From an uncultured Oscillospiraceae bacterium (GTDB lineage: Bacteria > Bacillota > Clostridia > Oscillospirales > Oscillospiraceae): 64,000 bases of DNA. The stretch spans positions 124,001 through 188,000 of the forward strand of contig CAKTOW010000002.1 in NCBI GenBank assembly GCA_934590325.1, written 5' to 3'. Position numbers and translations under genes: made by a program. The notes beneath the pieces were generated by a model that was given only the letters and a program-made list of their open reading frames with translations, was not told the origin of the DNA and ran no database searches. Below, one piece after another: positions 1,057 through 35,685 of this stretch; the first letter of the stretch is position 1; each line of letters opens with the position of its first letter.

Positions 1057-2889
1057 ATGGATAAACGACTGGAACGCATCCTGCCCCGCGTACAGAAGCC
1101 CGCCCGCTACGTGGGCGGCGAATACAACGCCATCCTGAAGGACAAGGCGCAGGTGGATACCCGCATTGCCTTCTGCTTCCCGGATACCTACGAGATAGGC
1201 ATGTCCAATCTCGGTATGCGCATTCTCTACGGCGTCATGAACAACATCCCCGGCGTGTGGTGCGAGCGCGTGTTCGCCCCCTGGGGCGACATGGAGGAGG
1301 AGCTGCGGAAGGCGGATATGCCCCTTTTCGCCCTGGAATCCGGCGACCCCATCACCGACTACGACATTGTGGCCTTCTCTGTGGGCTACGAGATGGCCTT
1401 TCCCGCCATCCTGAATATGCTGGACCTGGCGCATATCCCCCTCCACGCCGCCGACCGCACCGGCCTGACCCCGCTGGTCATCGCCGGAGGCACCGCCATG
1501 TACAACGCCGAGCCCCTGGCCGACTTCATCGACCTGGTCAGCCTGGGCGAGGGCGAGGATGTCACCGTGGAGCTCATCGAGCTTCACCGCCGCGCCCGCC
1601 GGGAGGGCTGGAGCAAGCCCGACTTCCTCCGCGCCGCCGCCCGGCTGGACGGCATCTACGTCCCGTCCCTCTACGATGTCACCTACCATGACGACGGCAC
1701 CGTCGCCGCCATCACCCCCAAGGACGGCGCGCCGGCGGTCGTCACCAAGCGCATCGTCCACGACATGGACAAGTCCTATTTCCCGGTGAACACCATCGTC
1801 CCCTCCACGGAGATCGTGCAGGATCGCGTCACTCTGGAGCTGTTCCGCGGCTGCATCCGCGGCTGCCGCTTCTGTCAGGCGGGCTACGTCTACCGCCCGG
1901 TGCGTAACCGCAGCCGCGACCTCTGCGCCGACTATTGCGTCCGCTCCTGCGACGATACCGGCTATCAGGAGGTGACGCTCTCCAGCCTTTCCACCAGCGA
2001 CTACCCTCCGCTGACCGCCCTCTGCGACGAGCTGGAGCCCTTCTGCGACGCCCGCCACGTCAGCCTGTCCCTGCCGTCCCTCCGCGCCGACAACTTCTCC
2101 ATGGATCTCATGCAGCGTCTGGCAAAGGGACGCAAGACCGGTCTGACCTTCGCGCCGGAGGCGGGCACCCAGCGCCTGCGGGACGTCATCAACAAGAACG
2201 TCACGCTGGACGACCTGCTCCACTCCTGCCGCACGGCCTTCGCCGGCGGCTACAGCGCCGTGAAGCTCTACTTCATGCTGGGTCTGCCCACCGAGACCGA
2301 CGAGGACGTCCTGGGCATCGCGGACGTGGCCGCCCGCGTCATGCACGCCTGGCGCGAGAGCGCCCAGAACAAGCAGCGCGGCGTCCGCATCACCGTGTCC
2401 ACCTCCTGGTTCGTGCCCAAGCCCCACACGGCCTTCCAGTGGGAGCCGCAGATCTCCAAGGCGGAGTACGAGCGCCGCGTGGCGCTGCTCCGCGACGCCA
2501 TCAAGACCAAGACCGTCACCTACAACTGGCACGACTCCGACACCAGCTTCCTGGAGGCCGTTCTGGCCCGCGGCGACCGCCGCCTGGGCAAGGTGTTGGA
2601 GACCGCCTGGCGCAAGGGCGCCCATCTGGATGCCTGGGAGGAATACTTCTCCCTTGACCGCTGGCTGCAGGCCTTCGACGAGTGCGGCCTGGACCCCCAT
2701 TTCTACGCCAACCGCACCCGCAGCGAGGACGAGCTCCTCCCGTGGAGCATGATCTCCTCCGGCGTCACCCAGGACTACCTGAAGCGTGAGCGCCATCTGG
2801 CGTATGAGTCCCTCACCACCCCCGACTGCCGCACCCGCTGCAACGGCTGCGGCGCCAACAAACTCGTAGGAGGGAAGTGCGATGTCTAA
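1057..2889 (+). CDS. TIGR03960 family B12-binding-domain radical SAM protein
   Basis: The product has 610 residues. An N-terminal cobalamin-binding-like region (about 1-200) precedes a radical SAM core with the CxxxCxxC cluster at Cys266, Cys270 and Cys273. A C-terminal part ends in a Cys-containing tail (CRTRCNGCG). This is the TIGR03960 family. In many Clostridia it is encoded next to, or fused with, the TIGR03936/DUF2344 protein that follows here and overlaps it by 8 bases. The substrate is not established, and tRNA or ribosome modification is only a guess from its frequent ribosomal-protein neighbours (rplS lies 800 bases downstream). The start ATG follows a GAGAGAAAAGGAC ribosome site. 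Confidence 0.88.
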   Translation: MDKRLERILPRVQKPARYVGGEYNAILKDKAQVDTRIAFCFPDTYEIGMSNLGMRILYGVMNNIPGVWCERVFAPWGDMEEELRKADMPLFALESGDPITDYDIVAFSVGYEMAFPAILNMLDLAHIPLHAADRTGLTPLVIAGGTAMYNAEPLADFIDLVSLGEGEDVTVELIELHRRARREGWSKPDFLRAAARLDGIYVPSLYDVTYHDDGTVAAITPKDGAPAVVTKRIVHDMDKSYFPVNTIVPSTEIVQDRVTLELFRGCIRGCRFCQAGYVYRPVRNRSRDLCADYCVRSCDDTGYQEVTLSSLSTSDYPPLTALCDELEPFCDARHVSLSLPSLRADNFSMDLMQRLAKGRKTGLTFAPEAGTQRLRDVINKNVTLDDLLHSCRTAFAGGYSAVKLYFMLGLPTETDEDVLGIADVAARVMHAWRESAQNKQRGVRITVSTSWFVPKPHTAFQWEPQISKAEYERRVALLRDAIKTKTVTYNWHDSDTSFLEAVLARGDRRLGKVLETAWRKGAHLDAWEEYFSLDRWLQAFDECGLDPHFYANRTRSEDELLPWSMISSGVTQDYLKRERHLAYESLTTPDCRTRCNGCGANKLVGGKCDV

Positions 2890-18268: not shown

Positions 18269-19177
18269 ATGAACGATGCACCCAAGAGATCCAGATTACA
18301 GCAGGATCAGCCTGCCGAACAGCATAACGGCAGCCGCAGACGCAGAAGAAACAAGAAGAGCAGCAAGACCCTCTACTACGCCATTTTGGTGGTGCTGGTG
18401 GGCGTGCTGGTGTTCTCGTCCGTAAAGATCATCTCCTACGTGAAGGACCAGAAGGACGCAGAGAACTCCCAGACCAATATCAGCAACGACTTCACCCGCC
18501 CCGATACCAGCGGTGATAATACCGCCGACAACACCTCCGGCGATACCCCGGACGGCGAGAAGAAGGACGAGGTCAAGAAGGATCCCGATCCCGAGAGCAT
18601 CATCGTTGACTTCGATAAGCTGCAGGCCCAGTATCCCGATGTGGTGGGCTATGTGTACAGCGCCAACACCGTGCTGCAGTACGCCATTGTGCAGACCATG
18701 GAGGCCGGAGACACCGGCAACGTGGGCGAGTACTACCTGTACCGCGACATCGGCGGCAACGCCAATAAGAACGGCACCGTGTTCCTGGATTACAAGTGCA
18801 GCTCCGACTTCACTTCGCACAACAACATCATCTACGGCCACAACATGAAGACCGGCCTGATGTTTGCGTCCCTGATGAACTATAAGAGCCAGAGCTACTA
18901 CGAGGCGCATCCCTACTTCTATCTGTACACCCCCAGCCAGACCTACAAGGTCAACCTGTTCGCCGGCTGCATCATGGAGCATGACGCGGACGTCTACTCC
19001 ACCTCTCTCAGCGAGAGCTACCTGCAGGAGTGCATCAACAACTCCACCTTCAAGTCCAGCTACGGCGTGCCTACCGGCAACATCCTGACCCTGAGCACCT
19101 GTGACTACGACTTCGACAACGCCCGCTACGTGGTCATGGGCGAGCTGGTACCCGTGAAGAACCCCGCCGAGAGCTGA
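18269..19177 (+). CDS. srtB: Class B sortase
   Basis: The 302-residue protein has a basic N-terminus (RRRRRNKK), one membrane helix at about residues 35-55, an acidic Asn/Asp/Thr-rich linker and a C-terminal sortase domain. Catalytic residues are His191 in YGHNM, Cys278 in TLSTC and Arg286 in ARYVVMGEL, matching SrtB. It would sit outside the membrane and attach surface proteins to peptidoglycan. In C. difficile the single SrtB uses (S/P)PxTG signals. The ubiquitin-domain surface protein in this window ends with SPKTF, so it is a conceivable substrate. It is monocistronic, with promoter and terminator. Confidence 0.93.
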   Translation: MNDAPKRSRLQQDQPAEQHNGSRRRRRNKKSSKTLYYAILVVLVGVLVFSSVKIISYVKDQKDAENSQTNISNDFTRPDTSGDNTADNTSGDTPDGEKKDEVKKDPDPESIIVDFDKLQAQYPDVVGYVYSANTVLQYAIVQTMEAGDTGNVGEYYLYRDIGGNANKNGTVFLDYKCSSDFTSHNNIIYGHNMKTGLMFASLMNYKSQSYYEAHPYFYLYTPSQTYKVNLFAGCIMEHDADVYSTSLSESYLQECINNSTFKSSYGVPTGNILTLSTCDYDFDNARYVVMGELVPVKNPAES

Positions 19178-31037: not shown

Positions 31038-31089
31038 CGGATAATTTGGCTATTATGTCAGAAAAACGACACTTATTCCAAATTCGTTA

Positions 31090-31118
31090 TTGTAGTTCGT
31101 CCAAAAATCCGCTATAAT
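31090..31118 (+). promoter_or_regulatory. Promoter of the ene-reductase gene
   Basis: TTGTAG, a 17-base spacer and TATAAT. Confidence 0.6.
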
Positions 31119-31166
31119 ACAAGAGTAAAACCGGCAGTATGCTGAAAATATGAGGAGGAACACCGA

Positions 31167-33227
31167 ATGAACGAGAAATACAGCGCGCTGTTTACCCCCT
31201 GGAAGATCGGCAACGTGGAGATCAAGAACCGTATCGTGCAGCCCTCTATGGGCGGTACGTCCCTGTTCGGCTGGCTGGAGCCCTGTCACTTCGACAAGGA
31301 GGCCGCCTACCACATCCTGAACCGCGCCCAGAACAACGTGGGTCTGGTGCTGCCGGGAATGCAGTGCGTCCGCGACACCATGGGCGGCCGCTGGCTCTAT
31401 CAGAACAAGAAGATGTTCAAGGAGCTGGCCGACTGGATGCCCGAGTTCCACAAGACCGGCTCCAAGCTGTTCGTGCAGCTGTCCGCCGGTATGGGCCGCT
31501 CCATGGCCATCAACGACATCATGGTCAAGATGCTGCAGAACAAGGCCTTCGGCGCCGTGGGCAAGCCCTTCCTGAACGTGGATTACATCACCGCCTCCGC
31601 CTCCGCCACGCCCAACCGCTGGTATCCGGAGTGCAAGTCCCGCCCCTTGACCGTGGAGGAGATCCACGAGATGGTGGACGCCTTTGCCAAGACCGCCAAG
31701 CTCCTGCAGGATGCCGGTGTGGACGGCGTGGAGATCCACGCGGTGCACGAGGGCTATCTGCTGGACCAGTTCACCCTGGCCAACATGAACTACCGTACCG
31801 ATGAGTACGGCGGCTCCTTCGAGAACCGCTATCGCTTCGCCGTTGAGATCGTCCAGGCCATCAAGGCCGTCTGCGGCAAGGACTTCCCCGTGGCCCTGCG
31901 CTACTCCGTGGTGTCCAAGACCAAGGGCTTCGGCCAGGGCGCCGTCCCCGGCGAGGAGTTCGTGGAGTTCGGCCGCGACATGCCCGAGTCCGAGAAGGCC
32001 ATCAAGTACCTGGAGGATGCCGGCTACGACATGTTCGACTGCGACAACGGCACCTACGACGCCTGGTACTGGGCGCATCCCCCGGTCTACATGCCCGAGA
32101 ACTGCAACCTCACCGAGGTGGAGCACATCAAGAACTTCACCACCAAGCCTGTGGTCTGCGCCGGTAAGATGAACCCCGAGAAGGCCGCCGAGGAGATTGC
32201 CGCCGGCCGTCTGGACGCCGTGGGCATCGCCCGCCAGAACCTGGTGGACCCCGAGTGGGTCAACAAGATCCTGGAGGACCGGGTGGAGGACATCAAACCC
32301 TGCATCAACTGTCATAACGCCTGCTTCAGCTTCAACAAGTCCAAGAGCACGCCCAATATGCAGCCCATGGATGATTCCCTGCACCTGGCCCGCTGCGCCC
32401 TGACCCCCAGCACCATGCAGCACAACAAGTACAAGATCGTCCCCACCCGCAAGCCCAAGAAGGTCGCCATCATCGGCGGCGGTATCGGCGGCATGGAGTG
32501 CGCCCTGGTGCTCAAGCAGCGCGGCCACACCCCCGTTATCTTCGAAAAGACCAATGAGCTGGGCGGCCTGTACATCACCGCCTCCGCCATGAGCTTCAAG
32601 GAGGCCGACAAGGCGCTGCTGCGCTGGTACGAGCGTGAGCTGAAGAAGAATGACATCGAAGTCCGCTTCAACATGGAGATCAACGCGCCCGCCACCCTGC
32701 GCCGTGAGTTCGACGAGATCATCGTCTGCACCGGCTCCCACCCCAAGACCCTGCCGGTCAAGGGCTTCAACAAGACCATCAACTTCACCCAGCTGCTGCT
32801 GAACCAGGTGGACGCCGGCGACCGCATCGTGTTCTTCGGCGGCGGCCAGTCCTCCTGTGAGGCCGCCTATGAGATGGTCCTCCAGGGCAAGCACCCCATC
32901 ATCGTGGAGTACGCCGACGACCTGATCGCCACCCCCGGCACCTGCCTGGCCAACGCATCCTTCCTCCGCGAGATGCTGGCGTTCAAGAAGGTGCCCATCT
33001 ACCTGAACTCCACCATCACCGAGATCGGCGACGGCTTCGTCATCGTCAAGGAGAAGGACGGCACTGAGATCCGCATCGAGTGCGACAGCGTGGTCAACGG
33101 CATCGGCTTCGTGCCAGCGCCCATCGCCGCCGATGACCACAAGGTCTACCGTGTCGGCACCTGCGAGAAGTGGGGCAACCTGCGCAATGTCATCTGGGGC
33201 GCCTGGGACGTCTGCATGCACATCTGA
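31167..33227 (+). CDS. OYE-family Fe-S flavoprotein ene-reductase (2-enoate reductase / BaiCD-like)
   Basis: The 686-residue protein has the two-domain architecture of 2-enoate and 2,4-dienoyl-CoA reductases. The FMN-binding TIM barrel spans about 1-370 (NRIVQPSMGG, VHEGYLLDQF, RTDEYGGSFENR). A 4Fe-4S motif CINCHNAC follows, and then a Rossmann FAD/NAD(P) domain starting VAIIGGGIGGME. The fourth cluster Cys (in ARC) comes 23 residues after the third, rather than the usual 11-12. These enzymes reduce activated C=C bonds (enoates, steroids, bilirubin) in gut anaerobes. The substrate cannot be assigned. It is monocistronic with its own promoter and terminator. Confidence 0.85.
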   Translation: MNEKYSALFTPWKIGNVEIKNRIVQPSMGGTSLFGWLEPCHFDKEAAYHILNRAQNNVGLVLPGMQCVRDTMGGRWLYQNKKMFKELADWMPEFHKTGSKLFVQLSAGMGRSMAINDIMVKMLQNKAFGAVGKPFLNVDYITASASATPNRWYPECKSRPLTVEEIHEMVDAFAKTAKLLQDAGVDGVEIHAVHEGYLLDQFTLANMNYRTDEYGGSFENRYRFAVEIVQAIKAVCGKDFPVALRYSVVSKTKGFGQGAVPGEEFVEFGRDMPESEKAIKYLEDAGYDMFDCDNGTYDAWYWAHPPVYMPENCNLTEVEHIKNFTTKPVVCAGKMNPEKAAEEIAAGRLDAVGIARQNLVDPEWVNKILEDRVEDIKPCINCHNACFSFNKSKSTPNMQPMDDSLHLARCALTPSTMQHNKYKIVPTRKPKKVAIIGGGIGGMECALVLKQRGHTPVIFEKTNELGGLYITASAMSFKEADKALLRWYERELKKNDIEVRFNMEINAPATLRREFDEIIVCTGSHPKTLPVKGFNKTINFTQLLLNQVDAGDRIVFFGGGQSSCEAAYEMVLQGKHPIIVEYADDLIATPGTCLANASFLREMLAFKKVPIYLNSTITEIGDGFVIVKEKDGTEIRIECDSVVNGIGFVPAPIAADDHKVYRVGTCEKWGNLRNVIWGAWDVCMHI

Positions 33228-33235
33228 GAATAGGC

Positions 33236-33269
33236 AAAAAAAGAAAGCCCGAAAGGGCTTTCTTTTTTT
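33236..33269. terminator. Bidirectional terminator between the ene-reductase and ubiquitin-domain genes
   Basis: AAAAAAAGAAAGCCC GAAA GGGCTTTCTTTTTTT. Confidence 0.9.
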
Positions 33270-33271
33270 GC

Positions 33272-34987
33272 TCACTGCTTCTTCCGGTTTACATACGCCA
33301 TCCCGGCCAGGGACAGCGCCGCGCTCACGGCGTAGATGCCCACGCCCGGGTCGAAGGTCTTGGGGGAGCCCTTCTTGTTCTCGTCGGTCTTACCGGTCTC
33401 GGTGGTGACGCTGTTGTAGTAGTACCGGGGCGCCGCCTCCCACTTGGCATACAGGGTGACGCTCTCCGTCACGGGCTTGGTAAAGTCGTAGGCCGCGGTG
33501 CACGCCTCGTCTGTGTACCAGCCCACAAGGGTATACCCGGCTCTGCTGACAGTGGGTGCGGTGACAGGCGTGTTGGCGTATTTCTGATTTGGTACAGCCG
33601 TACCGCCGTTGGTCTCAAATGCCACCGTATAGAATGTACCTTCCACACTTCCGTTATAGGTCCCGCCGCTGATCCTTCCGGCTTCTTCGTTCGTCACATT
33701 TCCGTTGAACGTTCCGCCGCTGATGGTGCCGATATGGGAAGGTGTCCCCAAATCGCACTCACCGCTATTTTTGACGCTGCCGTTGAACGTTCCGCCCTTG
33801 ATAGTCCCCTCGTAATTATCGACCGCCCCGTTGAACTGCCCGTCCTCGATCACGCCGCTGTTCCGCACTTTACCGTTGAAGGTGCCGCCGATGATGGTGC
33901 CGTTGCTGTTTACTACATTTCCGTCGAAGGTGCCGCCCGCGACGACAGCGGTGTAATGTTGATCCGGTGAAATAAGCATCGCGCCCGAGGAAGCATAGCT
34001 GCCCCCGGCTTTGCAGTCCGTGACGACGGCGCTGCCGCTGATGCTCATCTGGCGGACGCTGCAGATGCCGCCGCCATGTCCGGTGGCGGTGCAGCTGCGG
34101 ATGGTGCCGCCGGTCATGGTGAAGTCACCGTGGTTGGCTACACCGCCGCCGCTGTAGAACTCATCGGTAGCCACGCACCCTACGATGCTGCCGCCCTCCA
34201 TAGTGAAGCGGCCAAGTGTTTTGGCCTCATTTTTGTCGGCCACGTGCACACCGCCGCCTTGCTTGGCCCCGCAGCCTACGATGCTGCCGCCCTGCATCAC
34301 GAGCTCCGCGCCGGGACAGACGTACACACCGCCGCCGTCATTATAACCGGCATTTCCGCCGGTGATGATACCGCCGCGGACGGTCTCTCCACCGCCGGAC
34401 TCCTGCAGGCTCCACAGGTCATTGGTAGCATTGAACTTGTGTATGGCGGCGGGGTGGCTGTCCACCAGCGTCAGCGTGCCGCTCTCTACCTTGATAACAC
34501 TGCCGCTGCCGGTCAAATTCAGCACGAACCCGTTCAGGTCCAGCGTCACGTCGCCCTGAATGACCAGCGTCTGCGTCAGGTTCACGTTATTGCACAGGTA
34601 ATACTCTCCCGCTGTCAGGGTCGTTTTTTCGGTTAGCTCGATTGCAATACCAGTTGCGCTTTCTTCGGTCAATCTTACCCCGTTGGGTACACCTTTTTCT
34701 TCGGAAGCCACCAGCAGGGTGCTCTTTTTTGGGATGTTGTAGTCCCCCAGTGTGCGGCCATCCTTTAAAAATTTCCCGCCGTAGTAAAGAAACTGCTTGT
34801 CGACAGGGATGGATGCTTTATCCCACACCTTTTGCTTTACATTGTCGATAGAGTCCCCGGACTCCACCTCCAGTTCGATGGTCGTACCGGAGGGCAGCTC
34901 CGCAAAAAGGGTCATGCCCCACGCCGCGGTACACAGCGCCGCCGCTGCGCAGACGGCCAGCGCCAGAGTGATGATCGTTTTTTTCAT
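33272..34987 (-). CDS. Secreted, probably wall-anchored surface protein with an N-terminal ubiquitin-like domain
   Basis: The 571-residue protein starts at ATG 34987 (a GTG at 34993 is also in frame; AAGGGA suits the ATG). Residues 1-24 are a signal peptide. Residues 25-93 align without gaps to eukaryotic ubiquitin (IELEVESGD, NVKQKVWDK, DGRTLGDYNIPKKSTL), conserving Lys27, 29, 33, 48 and 63 (ubiquitin numbering) but not the RGG tail or Ile44. Then come beta-helix-like GG-rich segments (about 115-335), a run of GGTFNG-type repeats (about 340-450), an InlB/Listeria-Bacteroides repeat (about 453-517) and the sorting signal SPKTF (541-545) with a membrane helix and RKKQ end. It lies 14 bases after a TetR gene on the same strand. 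Function unknown; host interaction is an inference. Confidence 0.88.
   Translation of the reverse strand: MKKTIITLALAVCAAAALCTAAWGMTLFAELPSGTTIELEVESGDSIDNVKQKVWDKASIPVDKQFLYYGGKFLKDGRTLGDYNIPKKSTLLVASEEKGVPNGVRLTEESATGIAIELTEKTTLTAGEYYLCNNVNLTQTLVIQGDVTLDLNGFVLNLTGSGSVIKVESGTLTLVDSHPAAIHKFNATNDLWSLQESGGGETVRGGIITGGNAGYNDGGGVYVCPGAELVMQGGSIVGCGAKQGGGVHVADKNEAKTLGRFTMEGGSIVGCVATDEFYSGGGVANHGDFTMTGGTIRSCTATGHGGGICSVRQMSISGSAVVTDCKAGGSYASSGAMLISPDQHYTAVVAGGTFDGNVVNSNGTIIGGTFNGKVRNSGVIEDGQFNGAVDNYEGTIKGGTFNGSVKNSGECDLGTPSHIGTISGGTFNGNVTNEEAGRISGGTYNGSVEGTFYTVAFETNGGTAVPNQKYANTPVTAPTVSRAGYTLVGWYTDEACTAAYDFTKPVTESVTLYAKWEAAPRYYYNSVTTETGKTDENKKGSPKTFDPGVGIYAVSAALSLAGMAYVNRKKQ
33655..33945 (-). repeat. 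In-frame DNA repeats coding the GGTFNG units
   Basis: Near-identical blocks such as CCGTTGAACGTTCCGCC recur about every 50-70 bases within the surface-protein gene. They encode successive GGTFNG-V-N units of varied spacing. Confidence 0.7.
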
Positions 34988-35001
34988 CCGCACCGTTCCC
35001 T

Positions 35002-35685
35002 TTATTCCAGCGTAAAGTCGAAGTGCATGGCCAGCTCCCGGAACAGCGTCTCCATCACCTGCTGCGAGATGGCGCGGATGTCCATGCCCGCGATAAAGGC
35101 CAGCACCTGCCGCAGTTCCTCCTCCGGCACCTTATAGCCGCGCAGGCTCAGGGTCAGGAAGCTCTCCAGCTTCTTCTCCAGCGTGAAGGTCTCGTCGCAC
35201 TTCCGCGCCATATAGCCACGCATCAGCCCCGCCGACCCGATCTCCAGCGCGTAGAAGTCCTCCGCCGTCAGCTCCGGCTGGTATGCGCCGAAAATGCTGT
35301 ACAGCTCCTTGGCGGTCTGCCGGTAGATGTACTCCACCGCCTCCTCGTGGGTGTAGGCCTCGATGTATATCTCCCGCAGGTTCTCGTTCAGCTCCGTCAG
35401 CGTCATCTGTATGGCGGTCTCCACCGCGTAGACGAACACCGGCGGCAGCTTTTCCCCGGCGTTTTTCCGCGCCATGTCGAACTGCGTCCCGAACATGAAC
35501 GCCACCAGCTCCGTCAGCACGCCGTCCTTGGCCCGGAAGATGTTCTGGAAGCTGCTGTTGGACACCTCCGCCTTCTGTACGATCTCGGCCACGGTGGTCT
35601 TTTTGTAGCCCTGCTCCAGGAACAGCTTCACGCACACGGTCAGTATACGCCGCTTGGTGGGCAGACTTGCACTTGTCAGCGCCAT
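35002..35685 (-). CDS. TetR/AcrR-family transcriptional regulator
   Basis: The 227-residue protein has an N-terminal TetR helix-turn-helix (TTVAEIVQKAEVSNSSFQNI, about residues 30-49) and an all-helical ligand/dimerisation domain containing YAVETAIQMTLTELNENLREI. The gene precedes the ubiquitin-domain protein with 14 bases between stop and start, so the two form one transcript. A palindromic site at its own promoter suggests autoregulation and hence control of the surface protein. The ligand is unknown. Confidence 0.92.
   Translation of the reverse strand: MALTSASLPTKRRILTVCVKLFLEQGYKKTTVAEIVQKAEVSNSSFQNIFRAKDGVLTELVAFMFGTQFDMARKNAGEKLPPVFVYAVETAIQMTLTELNENLREIYIEAYTHEEAVEYIYRQTAKELYSIFGAYQPELTAEDFYALEIGSAGLMRGYMARKCDETFTLEKKLESFLTLSLRGYKVPEEELRQVLAFIAGMDIRAISQQVMETLFRELAMHFDFTLE

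Follow-up and report, generated by a model that had tools for sequence, protein, structure and literature searches.

A ubiquitin-fold domain directly behind the predicted signal peptide of a putative wall-anchored bacterial protein

Only one experimentally studied secreted bacterial ubiquitin was found in print, BfUbb of Bacteroides fragilis, and of the experimentally tested proteins it comes closest in kind to the one described here. Its similarity to ubiquitin reportedly begins where the signal sequence ends, and 13 of the 40 B. fragilis strains tested are inhibited by it, demonstrating action of an exported ubiquitin on other bacteria (PMC5705921). BfUbb is also reported to carry a C-terminal Cys, and Cys-ended BfUbb can trap E1 in vitro (PMC3352274). 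A search by title and start of abstract, with supplements and most subscription journals outside its range, returned no paper describing surface proteins such as those below. A later report is said to deal with the target of BfUbb in sensitive strains. Sequence similarity to ubiquitin is already recorded in databases, where some NCBI records bear the name "ubiquitin-like protein" (P0304, P0327, P0350).

The window, meaning the whole 64-kb stretch of DNA analyzed, encodes a 571-residue protein whose N-terminal region resembles ubiquitin. The features that bear on it are as follows.

35002..35685, minus strand: TetR-family regulator directly upstream of the ubiquitin-like gene (PF00440, E 9.1e-8)
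34997..35001, minus strand: AGGGA, possible ribosome-binding site of the ubiquitin-like gene, proposed from the sequence
33272-34987, minus strand: ubiquitin-like gene, ATG at 34987, stop at 33272, 571 amino acids
34916..34987, minus strand: predicted signal peptide, residues 1-24 (MKKTIITLALAVCAAAALCTAAWG), read from the sequence, presumed cleavage after AWG
34688..34915, minus strand: residues 25-100, ubiquitin-like domain, aligned gap-free with ubiquitin positions 1-76
33638..34327, minus strand: residues 221-450, Gly-rich repeats predicted by the whole-ORF model to form a beta-helix-like stalk
33443..33631, minus strand: Listeria-Bacteroides repeat PF09479, residues 453-515 (Pfam E 1.7e-17)
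33275..33367, minus strand: residues 541-571, with the sorting-like motif SPKTFD, then a hydrophobic stretch and a basic tail, from the sequence
18269..19177, plus strand: sortase gene (PF04203, E 4e-9), candidate anchoring enzyme, putatively linked to this substrate

A GTG at 34993 is likewise in frame with the ORF. The signal peptide is a prediction made by eye, and a hydrophobic N-terminus is common to the window protein and its relatives. At the presumed signal-peptidase site AWG is followed by MTLF, which would place the signal peptide directly before ubiquitin residue 1. The initial annotation had noted a Met just behind the predicted signal peptide; this is residue 25 (codon 34915-34913, within 34712-34915, which encodes residues 25-92), and the same placement is found in other bacteria. 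The stalk is modeled as short strands in series, with pLDDT mostly 64-97 in the whole-ORF prediction, and PF13229, a beta-helix family, is precomputed for P0004, a relative of the window protein. At the C-terminus, SPKTFD stands where LPXTG is expected in sortase substrates, followed by a hydrophobic stretch and NRKKQ; SPKTFD occurs within the last 45 residues of 113 of the 120 listed window-family relatives.

The ubiquitin-like domain reported in the initial annotation is real. In a gapless alignment with human ubiquitin the two are identical at 38/67, 38/72 and 39/76 positions, whereas 100,000 shuffles of the domain gave at most 17/67. A profile search and a fold prediction had been named as possible refutations; the former returned a significant PF00240 match (58.3 bits against a curated cut-off of 25.4, E 6.7e-16), and the latter the ubiquitin beta-grasp fold, with a domain model at pLDDT 90 that superposes on 1ubq at 1.0 Å over 76 residues. 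A phmmer search with residues 25-91 against PDB sequences gave 350 distinct matches at E <= 0.01, the best of those listed being ubiquitins at 61 bits per unit. No ThiS or MoaD family appeared at E <= 0.1 in a Pfam scan of the window protein. The annotation's view that the likeness exceeds both chance and the ThiS/MoaD level thus stands, a chance match being rejected by the PF00240 score, the phmmer matches and the shuffling, and an ordinary ThiS/MoaD-type protein by the lack of any such family at that threshold.

Judged from its residues, the domain is not a conjugatable ubiquitin, because it has no Gly-Gly tail, lacks the L8/I44/H68/V70 patch and carries Glu at position 72. Ubiquitin positions 71-76 read SEEKGV, with no Gly75-Gly76, and the polypeptide continues past them; the four patch residues are P/Y/L/A; and Glu replaces Arg72, a residue with a role in E1 choice. 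Of 72 positions compared with human ubiquitin, 34 differ. The domain contains no Cys, so the E1 trapping by BfUbb does not carry over to it. The absence of Gly75-Gly76 and of Cys, together with Glu72 and the P/Y/L/A patch, weakens the BfUbb-like, host-directed role that the initial annotation had held plausible.

A protein search with window residues 22-105 (threshold E <= 1e-3) matched 855 proteins, and each of the 120 listed has one ubiquitin domain. Counting the window protein (n = 121), N-terminal blocks and stalks in this family combine as MKK/GYND in 41, MKR/REHS in 24, MKR/GYND in 26 and MKK/REHS in 1; both N-terminal types are thus shuffled with both stalk types. A search with a Lachnospiraceae-type domain matched 3892 proteins, of which 92 of the 120 listed have a single ubiquitin and 28 several. 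A search with the L002 domain gave 7955 matches, and because all 120 listed are multi-ubiquitin proteins, that list serves only as a source of eukaryotic references. The L006-type proteins (P0264-P0362) form a large family in which ubiquitin is combined with LRR_5 or choline-binding-like repeats and is most variable on its I44 face.

Short-pattern scans added seven further loci from genomes and one from virus contigs, in Clostridia, Verrucomicrobia, Fibrobacter, Faecalibacillus and Lachnospiraceae; the relatives span several bacterial phyla. Because those scans relied on short patterns, whole genomes were also scanned with PF00240, counting genomes above the cut-off, seed genome included. Positives numbered 5 of 391 genomes in the class of G001, 3 of 198 in the class of G005, 10 of 126 in the Fibrobacter class (that of G004), 1 of 113 in the class of G003, 4 of 197 in the family of G007, 5 of 150 in the family of G006 and 1 of 28 in the order of G017; by these Pfam scans, 1-3% of genomes in the sampled Clostridia sets carry such proteins. 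None of the 14 control genomes in each scan scored above the cut-off. No window-type protein was found in the genome-contig scan, whose seven loci are all of other types, or in the 391 sampled genomes. One Verrucomicrobia record, with an NIOZ-UU title, encodes an 828-residue protein with N-terminal ubiquitin (L003:9893-12379); this title is not a gut one, and the class is therefore not confined to animal guts.

For comparisons of layout we kept 29 bacterial domains of about 33 (loci L001-L043 plus the second copy of L018, with the window separate). Left out were repeated loci, near-identical Fibrobacter copies (L028, L030, L034), weak second matches (L019, L035, L005), and five loci that scored under the cut-off (L022, L023, L039, L044, L045); P0063 and P0064 were included in the counts of face entropy and pre-domain residues. 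Directly ahead of ubiquitin position 1, at the presumed signal-peptidase site, 28 of the 29 domains have Ala; 27 have Met as position 1, and 26 show both. All 92 listed single-ubiquitin proteins of the Lachnospiraceae-type search have Met after Ala, this Met being residue 26 in 87 of them, and sortase-type motifs are found in 69; choline-binding-like PF19127 and LRR_5 are partner domains in that list. Anchors of other kinds are the SLH domains of L019 and L036 and, with a score under its cut-off, a type IX secretion tail of L004. In L002 and L010 a sortase gene adjoins the ubiquitin gene, the L002 proteins carrying NPKTFD. Because the placement of Ala before position 1 recurs with differing surface anchors, export of the ubiquitin fold to the surface looks like the common thread. 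The exact mature end at position 1 is not kept even within the window family, as 45 of the 120 listed near relatives carry five extra residues ahead of the domain. Gly-Gly is kept in 2 of the 29 relatives, L019 and L027, where an intact LRLRGG end precedes the remaining protein (1495-1722 in each); a deubiquitinase cut there is therefore possible in principle.

The tree of eukaryotic and bacterial members proposed in the initial annotation was built, and it places bacterial domains beside different eukaryotic ubiquitins. Trees were made on 73 columns, the first with five eukaryotic references and the second with twelve named references from proteins of the L002- and Lachnospiraceae-type searches plus two references from outside those searches. 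With five references, Entamoeba groups with L010, L040, L041 and one L018 copy (97/93), and Trichomonas with L026, L021 and L038 (100/97), L038 being a long branch; with twelve, the same two groups receive 86/88 and 100/96. In the second tree the window group is nested, together with Mastigamoeba and Pelomyxa, in a larger set (support 91/74, unstarred), and the Mastigamoeba ubiquitin, identical at 41/72 positions, is the eukaryotic sequence nearest to the window domain by tree path. The hypothesis that all bacterial rows form one clade is rejected at p-AU 0.00035 in the five-reference tree and at p-AU 1.3e-54 in the twelve-reference tree, or 0.03 there once the two references from outside the searches are removed. 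The L010 domain scores 141 bits against PDB 4gsw, which we take to be Entamoeba ubiquitin, and 129 bits against the next single ubiquitin.

Because relatives stand beside Entamoeba-, Trichomonas- and Archamoebae-type ubiquitins and a single bacterial clade is rejected, several captures from eukaryotes are likely; with so short a signal and so few eukaryotes sampled, the captures are put no higher than likely, and the donor protists are only suggested. At L018, two tandem genes (1240-1794 and 1791-2381, minus strand, 4 bp overlap) each encode a signal peptide and a ubiquitin. Since one of the two domains groups with Entamoeba-type ubiquitin and the other with L020, in different parts of the tree, the arrangement suggests two separate origins side by side. 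The window domain is low in GC at 50.9%, below which none of 596 windows from 25 genes of the 64-kb stretch falls, while its GC3 is reached or undercut by 11 of the 596. The low GC fits acquisition, but is given little weight because GC3 is likewise 0.59 in a second stretch of this gene.

The ubiquitin-like ATG lies 14 bp behind the stop of the TetR gene, and this gap, together with the preceding AGGGA, makes a single transcript for the two genes likely. A TetR gene also stands in front at L007, L008 and L042, and these loci and the window at first suggested a ubiquitin-specific operon. That idea is weakened by the loci of homologues of the window TetR, 16 of which were examined of 30 returned, with downstream genes judged by eye. 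An apparently secreted protein follows TetR in 12 of the 16 (L046, L067, L048, L068, L069, L050, L073, L051, L052, L053, L070, L075) and none does in the other four (L072, L047, L049, L074); a BLAST comparison of the ubiquitin-like protein with the 16 loci (E <= 1e-3) gave no match. The regulators of L007 and L042 show no detectable likeness to the window TetR, and no relatives of the latter were found in viral contigs. In G007 (L046, L067, L072) and other genomes, TetR is mostly followed by a large, apparently secreted protein free of ubiquitin, a general TetR-plus-surface-protein layout.

The window is otherwise ordinary bacterial chromosome with 62.5% GC, encoding Lon, ClpX, trigger factor, PEPCK, GMP synthase and anaerobic ribonucleotide reductase, as well as RimM, TrmD, AddB/AddA-type nucleases, HflX, diadenylate cyclase, PriA, RsmB, RlmN, a PASTA kinase and RsgA. 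Searches of phage and defense libraries gave no match. Downstream of the ubiquitin-like gene, a 740-aa ORF (31053-33275, minus strand) looks like a shadow ORF, because no family matches it and the facing strand holds a gene for an FMN-dependent oxidoreductase (31167-33227, plus strand).

Variability across the domain singles out one surface. In 41 distinct domains of the window family, mean entropy is 0.12 on the I44 face (12 positions), 0.60 on the other surface (43 positions) and 0.21 in the core, using assumed position lists for face and core; the face is less variable than the other surface at permutation P 0.0037, uncorrected for kinship. In 62 distinct domains of the LRR-type family, the corresponding values, likewise uncorrected for kinship, are 1.67, 0.84 and 0.23, with P 0.9996 for lower face entropy. 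The I44 face is thus the least variable surface in the window family, where it is constant although its key residues have all changed, and the most variable in the LRR-type family; for this latter reason constraint on it is not general. Because the frozen face of one family and the restless face of the other both single it out, we infer a binding tip, although the restless face can also mean relaxed constraint.

At a probability of about 55%, our main reading is that a captured eukaryotic ubiquitin, placed as a ubiquitin-fold domain behind the signal peptide of a predicted wall-anchored protein, serves as an exposed binding tip and not as a tag. Export and signal-peptide cleavage would leave ubiquitin residue 1 as the mature N-terminus, sortase would anchor the C-terminus, and the TetR gene in front would provide control, while the face centered on position 44 would bind a protein of some other cell. 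With the classical patch of ubiquitin replaced, the expected partner is not an ordinary ubiquitin receptor. More tentatively, at somewhat under even odds, mostly gut-dwelling bacteria may have captured ubiquitins of anaerobic protists (Entamoeba-, Trichomonas- and Mastigamoeba-like) independently and more than once, set them behind a signal peptide so as to expose residue 1 as the mature end, mounted them on varied stalks and rebuilt the Ile44 face as a contact face for new partners.

A contact-dependent weapon against other bacteria, the wall-tethered counterpart of the secreted toxin BfUbb, seems to us unlikely, but is the strongest of the alternatives. BfUbb is reported to have the same start right behind the signal sequence and to inhibit 13/40 strains (PMC5705921), and the shuffled N-terminal blocks and stalks of the window family are such as occur in arms races; the window protein, however, is no free 76-residue protein, having 571 residues with a stalk and an anchor-like tail, and its domain departs from human ubiquitin at those 34/72 positions. 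It is rather improbable that the fold is a mere stable N-terminal cap that aids export or shields the stalk and has no partner. Almost every domain retains the core residues and the D58-Y59 segment, whereas surfaces drift, and like stalks and the TetR-plus-surface-protein layout occur without ubiquitin, as such a cap would allow; against it, the same fold was likely captured repeatedly and one face is the least variable surface in the window family. Least probable by a little is ubiquitin mimicry towards eukaryotic cells, host or gut protist, by receptor engagement or E1 block: 13 of the 29 bacterial relatives keep L8, I44, H68 and V70 together, several are nearly identical to protist-type ubiquitins, and extracellular ubiquitin is reported to have receptor-mediated effects (PMC10892293), but the window domain has patch, Arg72 and Gly-Gly all replaced and no Cys of the BfUbb kind, and a scan of window genes revealed no injection system.

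Ubiquitin is an emblem of eukaryotic cells, and here its fold forms the outermost predicted domain of a large and diverse class of bacterial surface proteins. This raises testable questions: which partners ubiquitin has outside eukaryotic cells, why it was taken repeatedly, and whether bacteria and gut protists meet through it.

Compared with ubiquitin itself (PF00240, 1ubq), the window domain is alike in its gapless 38/72 identity and its predicted fold within 1.0 Å, and differs as a predicted exported part of a larger protein, with Gly-Gly missing and patch and R72 replaced. It shares with BfUbb (PMC3352274, PMC5705921) its bacterial origin, a signal peptide, here predicted, that ends just ahead of ubiquitin residue 1, and the absence of Gly-Gly; BfUbb, however, consists of 76 residues as a free protein, ends in Cys and is known to act against strains, whereas the 571-residue window protein is fused to a stalk and an anchor-like tail and has no Cys in the domain. 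The records named "ubiquitin-like protein" (P0304, P0327, P0350) are similar in their signal peptide, single ubiquitin domain and surface-protein partners, and differ in their stalks (LRR_5, choline-binding-like, FN3) and in branching separately in the domain tree; their name implies no function. Adhesins that are sortase-anchored and bear Listeria-Bacteroides repeats resemble the window protein in signal peptide, stalk, PF09479 and a C-terminal motif, here only sorting-like, with hydrophobic tail; what sets the window protein apart from them is SPKTFD in place of LPXTG and, at its N-terminus, the ubiquitin-like domain.
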